From Candidatus Kryptonium thompsonii (GTDB lineage Bacteria > Bacteroidota > Ignavibacteria > Kryptoniales > Kryptoniaceae): a stretch of DNA of 64,000 nucleotides. The stretch's first letter is position 1, and every line of letters begins with the position of its first letter. The DNA is taken from NCBI GenBank assembly GCA_001442925.1, contig LDXX01000002.1, positions 124,001 through 188,000 of the forward strand, given 5' to 3'. A model generated the notes under the pieces. The model searched no databases. It worked only from the letters and a program-made list of their open reading frames with translations, and had not been told where the DNA came from. This document shows, piece by piece, positions 59,836 through 64,000 of the stretch. A program made the position numbers and the translations under genes.

Positions 59836-62592
59836 ATGTTAAGGTCGATTAAAACTTTAGCAATTCTTTTCGTTCTCACCACTGTGGCTCTATCAATTTC
59901 TTTTGCGCAGTTAAAACTCTCACCTGTATGGGTTAAGAAAGCAGGGGTAGTGTCCTGGCTTCAGACCGATAATGCGGCACGCGGAATAGCTTATAATCCT
60001 GTTAATGATCATGTTTATGTTGTTTCAAGGACTGATGGATTGAAAGTAGTAATCCTTAGCGCAGCAACTGGTGATAGCCTTGGGAAATTGGATGTAACAG
60101 GTATAAGTGGTGGGACATTTGCTTTAAATATGATTGATGTTACAAGTGATGGGATAATTTATGCGTGTAATTTGTCCACCAATACCAGTGGTGATACCGT
60201 GTTCAAAGTATATCGTTGGGCTGATGAAAGCTCTGCGCCGACAGTAGCAGTTTCGTGGAGAGTTAACGCAAGAGTTGGTGACGCATTTGCAGTTGATGGT
60301 TCTGGAACAAATACAAAAATTTATGCAAGTGGCACTGGAAATGACAAAGTGGTAGTTTTTGGAACAACCGATGGAGTAAACTTTACATATGAAAAGTCGG
60401 TCACCGTTGGCACTGGTCGTGCACGACTTGGCATTGACATTGATAAAGATGGAAATATTTGGGGTAATGGTGCTGGAACAATTGCTGGTGTATGGGATCA
60501 AAGTGGAAACTTATTGGGTGAAATTGCGGGTACATCAGGGACTGCTACAGCTGATTTGGGTTTAACTGCCTCCGGAAGAAAACTTTTCTTCACTTTGGGA
60601 ATGGGTGCTGGTGTAGCTAGTCCTTATTTTAAATTTTATGTTTATGATGTAACAGAGGGTCCAGCAAAGGCAAAATTAATAGCTGTGACTGATAGTATCA
60701 CTGGTAACTCAAATGCAAACGGCACTGGAAGAGCGGTATACGATCCTGTACGTCATAGGATGATCGCTCTTGCGACAAACAACTATCTTGCTTCATTCCA
60801 GTTGACTTATCAAGTTACATTTAATGTTAACACAGCGACATCGCCGAAACTTTTGACGGATTCATCGCTTGTTGAGGTTCGTGGTTCACATCCATTGCTT
60901 GGTCCATGGTCAAGTGCGAACACAAATAGAATGACGAATTTAGGTGGTGATTATTGGAAACTTTCAATTGATTTTCCAGATACGATGATAGGGAAGGGGC
61001 TTGAGTACAAATTCTATGCTGAGGATTGGGAAGATGGTCCCAATCATTCATTAATCATACCTGCGGCGGATACGACATTGCCACTTGTTTTCTTCCGCAA
61101 GCAAGGTTTTGGACCAAATCCACCGTATACGCCAACTGATTCAATTGATGTGTGGTTTAGGGTTTATGTTTATAACATCCCTGAGTTTGACCCAGCACAA
61201 CATGTCGTTGGAGTTCGTGGAGCGCAATTGCCAAACCATAACGATTTTGGAGATATAAGTTGGGGCAGGACTTTTGTTCTCAGTCCAGAACCAGCAAATG
61301 ATAAGATTTGGTCCGGAAGGTTGAGATTCCCGTCGCCATCCGGAATTGCTTATAAGTTCGTGATTGCTTCCAGAGATAACCCCGACAATGTTATAAGGTG
61401 GGAATCAGATCCGAATCGCGAGGTCACTATAAAACGAGATACGACATTAGGATGGACGACATTTGATAGAAAAGTTATCGCTCCAGCAAAGCCAGTTGCC
61501 CTTTACTTTAGCGTTGATATGAGCGTAATGCAAGGAGCTGGGATTTTCTATCCAGACAGCGGTGATGTTGTTTTGGTTCGTGGCAGTTTCAATGGTTGGG
61601 GTGAATCTGACGCGTTGAGCCCGTCAACCCTTGAGCCCGGAGTATGGGAGAAGTTTGTTACGATTACAGCTGCACCTGGCGATTTCATTGAATTCAAGTA
61701 TTACATCAAGACTGGGACAAATAATCAAGCGAGGGTTCCAAATGGTGGATGGGAAACAGGCGCAAATAGAAAGTACACATTTACTGATGCAGATACCCAG
61801 CAAGTTGCAAGGGATTACTTTAACAAACTTGGTCCGGAAGGTTATGTTCAGAAGCCAGAGGGGGTTGAGGTGTGGTTCTATTGCGATATGAGAGGAGTGA
61901 CTGACAATAGTGGCAATCCAATTACAAGGGTCGATTCATTGTTCATCGCTGGGAGCACACCGCCATTGTTCTGGATTTGGGATGAACCAACGAGGGATCG
62001 TTCAAAGTTGAGGATGCATGATGATGGTGCATATCCAGATAAAGTCGCTGGAGATACAATTTATGCTGTCGCTTTGACATTCCCAAAGTGGAGTATAAAG
62101 GGACCGATTCAGTTTAAGTTTGCGGCGAATGGAACTGTTGACAATGAGGCTGGCTTCCAAGAGGATCATCTCTTGTTCCTTGATGATATGCCAGATCAAC
62201 CGGGTACAAAGGCGGTAAATGAACTTGAGGTTGTTAAATTTGGAAGACAGAGAGGATTGGGTGCTTTCAAAGATACAGTTAAGATCGTGAACAAGTTCAC
62301 AGGTGTTAAGCAAACAGATGAGATTCCTTTGACATACGCTTTGTATCAAAACTATCCGAACCCATTTAACCCGACCACAACGATTAAATATAGCATACCG
62401 AATACAGAGCGTGTCACATTGAAGATTTACAATATTCTTGGACAAGAGGTTGCAACACTTGTTGATGAGGAACAGAAGCCAGGTGTCTATGAATTGAAAT
62501 TTGACGCTGGAAATCTTGCGAGTGGTGTTTACTTCTACAGATTGAAAGCTGGTGGATTTACCGCTGTTAAGAAGATGATGCTGGTGAAGTAA
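59836..62592 (+). CDS. Secreted DUF4623-like protein with carbohydrate-binding-like modules and C-terminal sorting domain
   Basis: 918 residues. Signal peptide about 1-24 (ending FAQ). A beta-propeller-like N-terminal part (DUF4623-type: NAARGIAYNPVNDHVYVVSR, then TSGDTVFKVYRW) is followed by two or three starch-binding-like Ig modules. One reads VEVRGSHPLLGPWSS and another LVRGSFNGWGESDALSPS (CBM20/CBM48-like), and a third stretch has FIAGSTPPLFWIWDEPT. The last ~85 residues are a sorting domain (NYPNPFNPTTTIKYSIP, NILGQEVATLVDEEQ, ASGVYFYRLKAGG). A GGGAGGGTAG site precedes it. Likely a surface glucan-binding protein. Its TAA is immediately joined to the palindromic repeat at 62593. Confidence 0.85.
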   Translation: MLRSIKTLAILFVLTTVALSISFAQLKLSPVWVKKAGVVSWLQTDNAARGIAYNPVNDHVYVVSRTDGLKVVILSAATGDSLGKLDVTGISGGTFALNMIDVTSDGIIYACNLSTNTSGDTVFKVYRWADESSAPTVAVSWRVNARVGDAFAVDGSGTNTKIYASGTGNDKVVVFGTTDGVNFTYEKSVTVGTGRARLGIDIDKDGNIWGNGAGTIAGVWDQSGNLLGEIAGTSGTATADLGLTASGRKLFFTLGMGAGVASPYFKFYVYDVTEGPAKAKLIAVTDSITGNSNANGTGRAVYDPVRHRMIALATNNYLASFQLTYQVTFNVNTATSPKLLTDSSLVEVRGSHPLLGPWSSANTNRMTNLGGDYWKLSIDFPDTMIGKGLEYKFYAEDWEDGPNHSLIIPAADTTLPLVFFRKQGFGPNPPYTPTDSIDVWFRVYVYNIPEFDPAQHVVGVRGAQLPNHNDFGDISWGRTFVLSPEPANDKIWSGRLRFPSPSGIAYKFVIASRDNPDNVIRWESDPNREVTIKRDTTLGWTTFDRKVIAPAKPVALYFSVDMSVMQGAGIFYPDSGDVVLVRGSFNGWGESDALSPSTLEPGVWEKFVTITAAPGDFIEFKYYIKTGTNNQARVPNGGWETGANRKYTFTDADTQQVARDYFNKLGPEGYVQKPEGVEVWFYCDMRGVTDNSGNPITRVDSLFIAGSTPPLFWIWDEPTRDRSKLRMHDDGAYPDKVAGDTIYAVALTFPKWSIKGPIQFKFAANGTVDNEAGFQEDHLLFLDDMPDQPGTKAVNELEVVKFGRQRGLGAFKDTVKIVNKFTGVKQTDEIPLTYALYQNYPNPFNPTTTIKYSIPNTERVTLKIYNILGQEVATLVDEEQKPGVYELKFDAGNLASGVYFYRLKAGGFTAVKKMMLVK

Positions 62593-62639
62593 CTCACCCC
62601 CTTAATCCCCCTCTCTAAATTTTTAGAGAGGGGGTTAAG
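62593..62639. repeat. Palindromic repeat, copy 1 (right outer arm missing)
   Basis: CTCACCCCC opens the copy, followed by a long hairpin of CCCCCTCTCTAA and TTAGAGAGGGGG with a single bulge. The right end (GGGGGTGAG), present in copies 2 and 3, is missing. The repeat begins at the stop codon of the upstream gene. Confidence 0.85.
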
Positions 62640-62655
62640 ATGCTAAAAGTTTTAA

Positions 62656-62711
62656 ACTCACCCCCTTGATTTCCCTTCTCTAAGTTCTTGGAGAGGGGTT
62701 AGGGGGTGAGT
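62656..62711. repeat. Palindromic repeat, copy 2 (complete)
   Basis: ACTCACCCCC and GGGGGTGAGT are the outer arms; CCCTTCTCTAAG and CTTGGAGAGGGG form the inner stem with mismatches. Same layout as copies 1 and 3; 59 bases before the DUF559 start. Confidence 0.85.
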
Positions 62712-62769
62712 AAAATTTAAATTTATTTGAATTGAGCCGGGAAGCTTAAAGAATAATTGGTTGCTTTTA

Positions 62770-63135
62770 ATGACTAAAAAGCAAATAATTGAAATAGCAA
62801 GGCAATTAAGAAAACAGCAGACGGTATCGGAGAGAAAATTATGGGAAATTTTGCGAGGCAGAAAATTTTTAGGACTGAAGTTTTTGCGGCAACACCCAAT
62901 AATATATATTTGCAACGATAAGCTTCACTTTTTTATAGCCGACTTTTATTGTGCGGAAAAGAAAATTGTTTTAGAGCTTGATGGGAAGGTGCACGATTCT
63001 CAGAAAGATAGAGATCAAATGAGAGATTACATCATTAACAGTATGGGATTAAAAGTCTTGAGGATAAAAAATGAAGAGCTGCTTGATATTGAATTAGTTT
63101 TAGAACGGATAAAAAACTTTATTGAATCTGTTTAA
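62770..63135 (+). CDS. DUF559 endonuclease-like protein
   Basis: 121 residues from ATG 62770; a TTG at 62761 in frame is possible but less likely. QLRKQQTVSERKLWEILRGRKFLGLKFLRQHPI is the family opening, and FFIADFYCAEKKIVLELDG followed by DRDQMRDYIINSMGLKVLRI gives the Asp, Glu and downstream residues of a Vsr/PD-(D/E)xK-type nuclease fold. Such genes are often found with short GC-rich palindromes in Bacteroidota-type genomes, as here. The substrate is unknown; repair or a selfish role have been suggested in general for the fold. Confidence 0.88.
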   Translation: MTKKQIIEIARQLRKQQTVSERKLWEILRGRKFLGLKFLRQHPIIYICNDKLHFFIADFYCAEKKIVLELDGKVHDSQKDRDQMRDYIINSMGLKVLRIKNEELLDIELVLERIKNFIESV

Positions 63136-63137
63136 TT

Positions 63138-63196
63138 AACTCACCCCTTTAGTTCCCCCTCTCTATTTCGATAGAGAGGGGGTTAGGGGGTGAGTT
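63138..63196. repeat. Palindromic repeat, copy 3 (complete)
   Basis: AACTCACCCC and GGGGGTGAGTT outer arms; TCCCCCTCTCTAT and ATAGAGAGGGGG inner stem with a short TTCG loop. It starts 2 bases after the DUF559 stop codon and could also act as its transcription end. Confidence 0.85.
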
Positions 63197-63227
63197 AAAA
63201 AACCAAAACATAGGGGAAATTACCTTT

Positions 63228-64000
63228 ATGCTCAAAATTTTTATATTTATTCTAATCTTCGCTCAATCTCTTCTCTCACAAATTGTCCCTGTGACATTTT
63301 ATTATAAACCACAAACCCCTGTAAATTCTGTTTTTCTGGCTGGCACATTTAACAATTGGGGAAATAATGTTAATGGAATTGTCTCAGATACAACATTTAG
63401 AATGCGTTACGATGCTAGTAATGGTGTCTGGTATAAAGTTCAAAATCTCGGCGTTGGAATTCATGAATATAAATTTGTCGAAGATAGAAACGGCGATGGC
63501 AAAGGGGAGACATGGATAACTGATCCAAACAACCCAAGAGTTAATTATTCGAATTATAACAATTCAATTCTCATCGTTTCCGATCCGATGGTTTTCCACC
63601 TTTTGCCAAAGCATGGCACGATAACGAATCGCGATCAACCGGAGATCTCAGCTTATATTTTTTATTCATCCAGTACGACAATTTCAGAGATTAATCTTTA
63701 TATAGATAATGTTCTTGTCCCAAATGGAATTACATATTTTAATCCGGGAAATCAAAAGTTTAGCTATACTCCATCTCAACCTCTTTCAAATGGTCAGCAT
63801 TTTATAAAACTTGAAGTTAAAACATCAACTGGTAAAACTGCTTCTGATACCTCGCGTTTTACTGTTGATGTAACATATAGAATTTATCAGGCTGAATATG
63901 AATTTATATTTGACCCGAGAAGTTCAAGAAATTCCTACAGAAATATAACCTCGGTTAGTTTACGCGGTGAGTTCAATAATTGGGGGGAAGACCCGATGCA
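63228..64000 (+). CDS. Secreted protein with glycogen-binding-like (CBM48) domains, probably an alpha-amylase-family enzyme (partial)
   Basis: 257 residues are visible from ATG 63228; the gene leaves the window on the right. Signal peptide about 1-17 (ending SLLSQ). The first domain, VPVTFYYKPQTP then VFLAGTFNNWGNN and KFVEDRNGDGKGETWITDPNNP, is a CBM48/isoamylase-N-type Ig fold; an Ig-like linker follows (SDPMVFHLLPKHGTITN, then SEINLYIDNVLVP). A second CBM-like start, VSLRGEFNNWGEDPM, ends the window. Multi-CBM48 starts like this precede GH13 barrels in extracellular amylases and pullulanases. The catalytic part is not visible, so this is a likely guess, supported by the LacI/SusC locus upstream. 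Confidence 0.75.
   Translation, partial: MLKIFIFILIFAQSLLSQIVPVTFYYKPQTPVNSVFLAGTFNNWGNNVNGIVSDTTFRMRYDASNGVWYKVQNLGVGIHEYKFVEDRNGDGKGETWITDPNNPRVNYSNYNNSILIVSDPMVFHLLPKHGTITNRDQPEISAYIFYSSSTTISEINLYIDNVLVPNGITYFNPGNQKFSYTPSQPLSNGQHFIKLEVKTSTGKTASDTSRFTVDVTYRIYQAEYEFIFDPRSSRNSYRNITSVSLRGEFNNWGEDPM

Follow-up and report, generated by a model that had tools for sequence, protein, structure and literature searches.

The DNA analysed here, a window of 64,000 nucleotides from Candidatus Kryptonium thompsonii, contains a unit of about 600 bp (62593–63194) in which three related GC-rich palindromes are arranged around one gene of the DUF559 family (PF04480). Its features and those of its relatives suggest, with a probability of roughly 60%, that it is a small mobile unit made of a DUF559 nuclease gene and, on both sides of it, BoxC/PIT-type palindromes of a family of its own. 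As far as sequence comparison goes, palindromes and gene are kept together as a unit in many phyla, covary with each other and enter empty sites, either between genes or in frame within them.

The order within the unit is palindrome 1, palindrome 2, DUF559 gene, palindrome 3. Palindrome 1 (62593–62641) is a half copy that begins at the next base after the TAA stop codon of the upstream gene (62590–62592), carries the left outer arm CTCACCCC, lacks the right outer arm and has its stem, CCCCCTCTCTAAA/TTTAGAGAGGGGG, at 62607–62634. Palindrome 2 (62657–62710) has both outer arms, CTCACCCC/GGGGTGAG, and a diverged stem (CCCTTCTCT...AGAGGGG), and palindrome 3 (63140–63194), again with both outer arms, has a perfect 12-bp stem and begins 4 bp past the DUF559 stop codon (63133–63135). 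Coordinates, arms and folding bear out the original prediction of three related palindromes around the gene, the first without its right arm and abutting the upstream stop codon and the last abutting that of the DUF559 gene. The ends CTCACCCC ... GGGGTGAG are indeed common to the window palindromes; the 10-bp stem CCCCCTCTCT/AGAGAGGGGG, which had been attributed to all three, is matched exactly by copies 1 and 3 alone, as the stem of palindrome 2 has diverged. The arm CTCACCCC occurs six times in the window where 1.0 occurrence would be expected, five of them at the DUF559 unit, and folding of the three palindromes as DNA hairpins gives z scores of -5.8, -4.7 and -6.8 relative to shuffled sequences. 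A search for an Rfam family yielded only sub-threshold, microRNA-like chance matches. The upstream host gene (59836–62592, forward strand), which encodes starch-binding CBM20 and CBM48 domains and a T9SS sorting tail, lies outside the element and marks the insertion point; it is syntenic in G002, where the DUF559 gene is absent and one diverged palindrome is found. The right border is formed by a second host gene (63228–63998, forward strand), AMPK1_CBM-like by a weak match and glycogen-binding-like, which runs off the end of the window.

The DUF559 gene itself (62761–63135, forward strand; TTG at 62761, in-frame ATG at 62770) encodes about 121 amino acids and matches the PF04480 profile with 103 bits (curated cut-off 20.6, E=1e-29). 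Members of the family have been placed among the EDxHD nucleases in a study of cyanobacteria (PMC9403480), and the Caulobacter DUF559 protein VsrA, which is Vsr-like, was interpreted as a mismatch-repair endonuclease (PMC12907096). An AlphaFold model of the window protein (pLDDT 93.7) retrieved 3hrl with an E-value of 1.2e-6 and the catalytic domain of I-Bth0305I (3r3p) with 9.7e-4 in Foldseek, a profile search with DUF559 matched the same homing endonuclease at 1.6e-6, and the residues invariant in an alignment of 46 DUF559 sequences include E21, D58, E69, D71 and H75. The protein thus models as a PD-(D/E)XK nuclease of the Vsr/EDxHD type, closest to 3hrl and I-Bth0305I, with nuclease activity being predicted.

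Knowledge of BoxC/PIT/TM repeats in E. coli goes back to the 1990s. They have the layout CCCTCNCCC N3-6 GGGNGAGGG N3 GGGNGAGGG, occur in 23 copies in E. coli MG1655 and in multiple copies in more than 260 genomes, and in vitro the E. coli motif can form an intrastrand triplex of the purine motif (Holder et al., 2015, PMC4666352). Window palindrome 3 shares with them the succession of pyrimidine block, purine block, 3-nt loop and mirror purine block (Y-R-R'), its stem being followed by TTA and the purine block GGGGGTGAG (GAGAGGGGG TTA GGGGGTGAG, eight of nine mirror matches), which is the layout of a purine-motif intrastrand triplex, whose formation in the window is predicted from the sequence; in palindrome 1 the mirror block, also with eight of nine matches, lies on the complementary strand. 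Such a third mirror block accompanies 87 of 130 and 87 of 125 DUF559-flanking palindromes, as compared to 16 and 17 with shuffled flanks, and the gap preceding it has a sharp peak at 3 nt. Both kinds of repeat are moreover multi-copy, mostly intergenic and found at unstable loci. They differ in that the window copies, with CCCCCTCTC stems, do not match the E. coli consensus TMECO exactly, and in that a nuclease family stands beside the repeats here, whereas no mobility gene was reported near BoxC/PIT/TM repeats (PMC4666352). An exact TMECO match was nevertheless found within 400 bp at 18 of 163 DUF559 loci and likewise at ycjD, the DUF559 gene of E. coli K-12, where a copy lies 167 bp past the stop codon (L296:2706–2740; NC_000913.3:1351205–1351239) and the reading frame terminates within a second such palindrome; ycjD is not mentioned in the main text of PMC4666352. 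A query from the ycjD side is present in 3278 of 5426 complete E. coli genomes. Since the checked genomes without ycjD carry the eef efflux operon in its place, the absence amounts to a swap and the locus was rejected as a clean empty site.

How general is the link between DUF559 genes and such repeats, at which the original prediction had hinted? DUF559 loci were gathered by protein similarity alone, blind to palindromes, 80 from the class and 80 from many phyla; a consensus query gave 80 loci, the window protein as query in a first contig scan having given no matches. A palindrome whose first arm is C-rich and whose second arm is G-rich lies within 250 bp of the DUF559 gene at 71 of the 80 class loci (39 of 1779 control windows) and at 77 of the 80 loci from many phyla (27 of 1108 control windows), that is at 148 of 160 loci taken together as compared to controls of about 2%, so that the association is very strong and phylum-wide. 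Coding sequence makes up most of the control windows, and for this reason the regions flanking other genes served as a second control. In the first set palindromes were found upstream of DUF559 in 63 of 80 cases versus 4 of 173 for other genes (Fisher 2e-38) and downstream in 39 of 80 versus 13 of 173 (Fisher 4e-13), and in the second set the upstream counts were 64 of 72 versus 4 of 74. The reverse polarity, G-rich to C-rich, is near background at DUF559 loci in both sets. The family member of N. gonorrhoeae whose protein is PDB 3hrl has such palindromes, as do plasmid-borne DUF559 genes, although at the search sensitivity used the family is rare in phages (4 of 50,697 records) and plasmids (45 of 72,556). 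On a plasmid of Synechocystis sp. B12 (L306), a DUF559 gene with palindromes lies within a split DUF1156-type gene. Across 61 genomes the excess of palindromes tracks the presence of DUF559 (Mann-Whitney p 1e-4, no phylogenetic correction). G046 and G055, of the same class, have a clear excess of CCCCTC..GAGGGG palindromes but no DUF559, and many of the G055 palindromes look heterogeneous and may belong to another repeat family; the detector is simple and the pattern loose, so that such counts miss variants and take in unrelated matches, as in G055. No earlier report of a link between DUF559 and palindromes was found in the open-access literature.

An association of this kind could also arise if the palindromes were unstable host repeats in their own right, used preferentially as landing or recombination sites, with DUF559 as a passenger that has another job such as mismatch repair or restriction. 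Palindromes do exist alone, without a neighbouring DUF559 gene, insertion sequences enter REPs, as PMC8450116 reports for ISPpu9, TM sites of E. coli are rearrangement hot spots (PMC4666352), and VsrA of Caulobacter is tied to a methyltransferase (PMC12907096). However, PF05635, another small-ORF family in the same genomes, has palindromes upstream in none and downstream in 2 of 28 cases. (PF05635, the family of 23S rRNA intervening-sequence proteins, had also been considered as palindrome partner and was rejected, as it does not occur in the genus and has no palindromes on its flanks elsewhere.) Also speaking against independent host repeats is their distribution in the genus. Of seven members, the three with an intact DUF559 gene hold 15, 34 and 81 CCCCTC..GAGGGG palindromes (controls 3–4), whereas the four without hold 1 to 7 (controls 1–4). 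In G006 a broken DUF559 gene (L053:3854–4160, contig G006:C5) has no such palindromes left beside it. The source genome (2.59 Mb) contains exactly one DUF559 gene, and pattern searches across it found 4 full and 11 core palindromes. Most of these stand alone or in twos, frequently right behind stop codons, and a reverse-pattern control gave no match. G001 has the unit at the same locus as the window, where two palindromes flank the gene at one end and three at the other, and G003 has it at a different locus with four palindromes on either side. In G003 the repeat has been amplified to about 80 copies, with palindrome arrays devoid of DUF559 at C3:46838–47114, C4:2077–4097, C4:11505–12088, C7:21271–22473, C13:2791–3502 and C14:6989–7741.

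Further evidence against a mere passenger comes from covariation. Across 138 loci, the more alike two DUF559 proteins are, the more alike are the arms of their palindromes (Mantel r 0.31, permutation standard deviation 0.03), a correlation that persists among DUF559 pairs of less than 60% protein identity (r 0.25), and palindromes of two DUF559 genes in the same genome are no more alike than those of pairs from different genomes at equal protein identity. Palindrome sequence, in these comparisons, follows DUF559 sequence rather than the host genome. This is compatible with a cognate pair of enzyme and palindrome, though it could alternatively result from co-inheritance of a linked unit instead of recognition. 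Together with the fact that the G003 gene came with its palindromes while the corresponding site of congeners has none, these observations make the passenger explanation unlikely.

That the gene and its palindromes move together is suggested by empty sites. The G003 unit (G003:C7), eight palindromes and the DUF559 gene in about 920 bp, lies directly behind a stop codon, and in G000, G002, G004, G005 and G006 nothing but a short AT-rich spacer separates the same two genes at the syntenic site, the identity of the flanks being 76–84%. Comparison with these five congeners revealed no target-site duplication. G000 has a solo palindrome pair (C6:377835) that is likewise missing at the syntenic place in G003, where an unrelated hairpin is found. 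In addition, some units are inserted in frame and read through, as inside UvrC (L056) and HsdR (L078 and L083) and in MetH (L073), where the unit lies between two B12-binding domains; further in-frame units are found in an HsdM-like protein (L069) and upstream of RNase H (L099), the host proteins of L069, L083 and L099 having been named by eye. The translated palindromes yield stretches like SPLTPLLEGEE. Two congeners of the uvrC host, 88–89% identical over the aligned part, lack the inserted segment, which measures about 640 nt. The in-frame insertions and the empty sites together indicate that gene plus palindromes behave as a small insertable element, which favours the small selfish element of the original prediction. 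For several units the pattern suggests vertical maintenance in place of activity, for example those of the Azospirillum chromids, where the unit is conserved at a single place next to prfA and no empty allele was found.

Presence and absence at one site among close relatives, as found at G003:C7 and in uvrC, is the pattern of homing, and DUF559 could be a strict homing endonuclease that cuts an unoccupied host site, with palindromes that merely bracket or protect the gene. Such a function would agree with the kinship to I-Bth0305I in fold and profile and with the assignment to the EDxHD family (PMC9403480). At L091 (2540–6007, reverse strand) a DUF559 gene lies between Hint/intein-like sequence within a DNA methyltransferase gene, again as homing would have it, and may be the endonuclease of the intein, although Pfam did not confirm a Hint domain there. 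However, I-Bth0305I is a protein of a mobile intron, whereas the DUF559 units have palindromes, no intron was seen in them, and they have entered many different, unrelated places (uvrC, metH, hsdR, intergenic) instead of the single site of a homing enzyme; moreover, the palindromes are multi-copy and covary with DUF559. Strict homing is therefore considered improbable. A classical insertion sequence, with a DDE or serine transposase, terminal inverted repeats and a target-site duplication, was rejected, as there is no transposase and no duplication was seen at the empty site of the G003 unit.

Since the palindromes are frequently located directly behind stop codons, they might also act as transcription terminators or insulators, at which a small gene inserted past the stop codon would be tolerated. 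In G004, the orthologous gene does have a CCCTCTCCC hairpin and a T-run behind it. On the other hand, a scan of 62300–63500 for rho-independent sites (GC-rich hairpin plus T-run) found none, palindromes are present within the uvrC, metH and hsdR reading frames, and the E. coli motif had no terminator activity in the published tests reported in PMC4666352, so that termination as the primary role seems very improbable. Palindromes spread widely with no tie to DUF559 and acting only as terminators, the outcome that would have spoken most clearly against the original prediction, are thus not what was found, the association being strong and the terminator scan negative. Solo palindromes often stand directly behind the stop codons of genes with a T9SS tail that end in KKMVLVK or a similar sequence, for example at position 62592 of the window, L006:3899, L048:4711, and L049:4422 and 7591; this position may reflect either a target preference or copying along with the conserved tail.

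The best reading of these observations is that the mobile unit of DUF559 gene and palindromes is a REP/RAYT-like or homing-like selfish unit built on a different nuclease. Rickettsia palindromic elements, like some DUF559 units, are located in frame within protein-coding genes. They are not known to carry a nuclease gene, and the in-frame DUF559 inserts differ in that they include the whole DUF559 domain. Closer in organization are the REPtrons, in which short palindromes flank the gene of a small single-domain nuclease and many solo copies exist, in clusters and some within genes (PMC3733652). RAYTs, however, are HUH tyrosine transposases that recognise GTAG-tagged REPs, whereas DUF559 has a PD-(D/E)XK Vsr-like fold and its palindromes run from C-rich to G-rich and have a triplex block. 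Membership of the window unit in this group was rejected, as its gene is DUF559 and its palindromes end in CTCACCCC/GGGGTGAG.

How could such a unit spread? In this reading, the palindromes, which can fold as hairpins and have the layout of a purine-motif intrastrand triplex, would be recognised in folded or extruded form by the DUF559 protein, which would nick or break the DNA there. Repair or recombination might then copy the palindromes, and at times the whole unit, elsewhere. Palindromes that stand alone or in short tandem arrays would be non-autonomous copies, in the same relation to DUF559 as REPs to RAYTs, and the reported instability of E. coli TM loci would be a consequence of DUF559 cleavage. 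A nuclease that acts on its own hairpins, the other possibility raised in the original prediction, is plausible from fold and covariation, and DUF559 is a candidate for the partner that spreads the widespread BoxC/triplex repeats. It is conceivable, at slightly less than even odds, that DUF559 and BoxC/PIT-type palindromes constitute a widespread, so far undescribed class of mobile element, in which a Vsr-like nuclease recognises a triplex or hairpin, spreads palindromes and places nuclease domains in frame into host proteins.

As DUF559 is found beside BoxC-type repeats at nearly all examined loci, including ycjD of K-12, an old question about these repeats becomes testable in a laboratory strain, and a common family of unknown function gains a concrete functional hypothesis. 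If true, the partnership of palindrome and nuclease known from REP and RAYT would gain a second nuclease fold.
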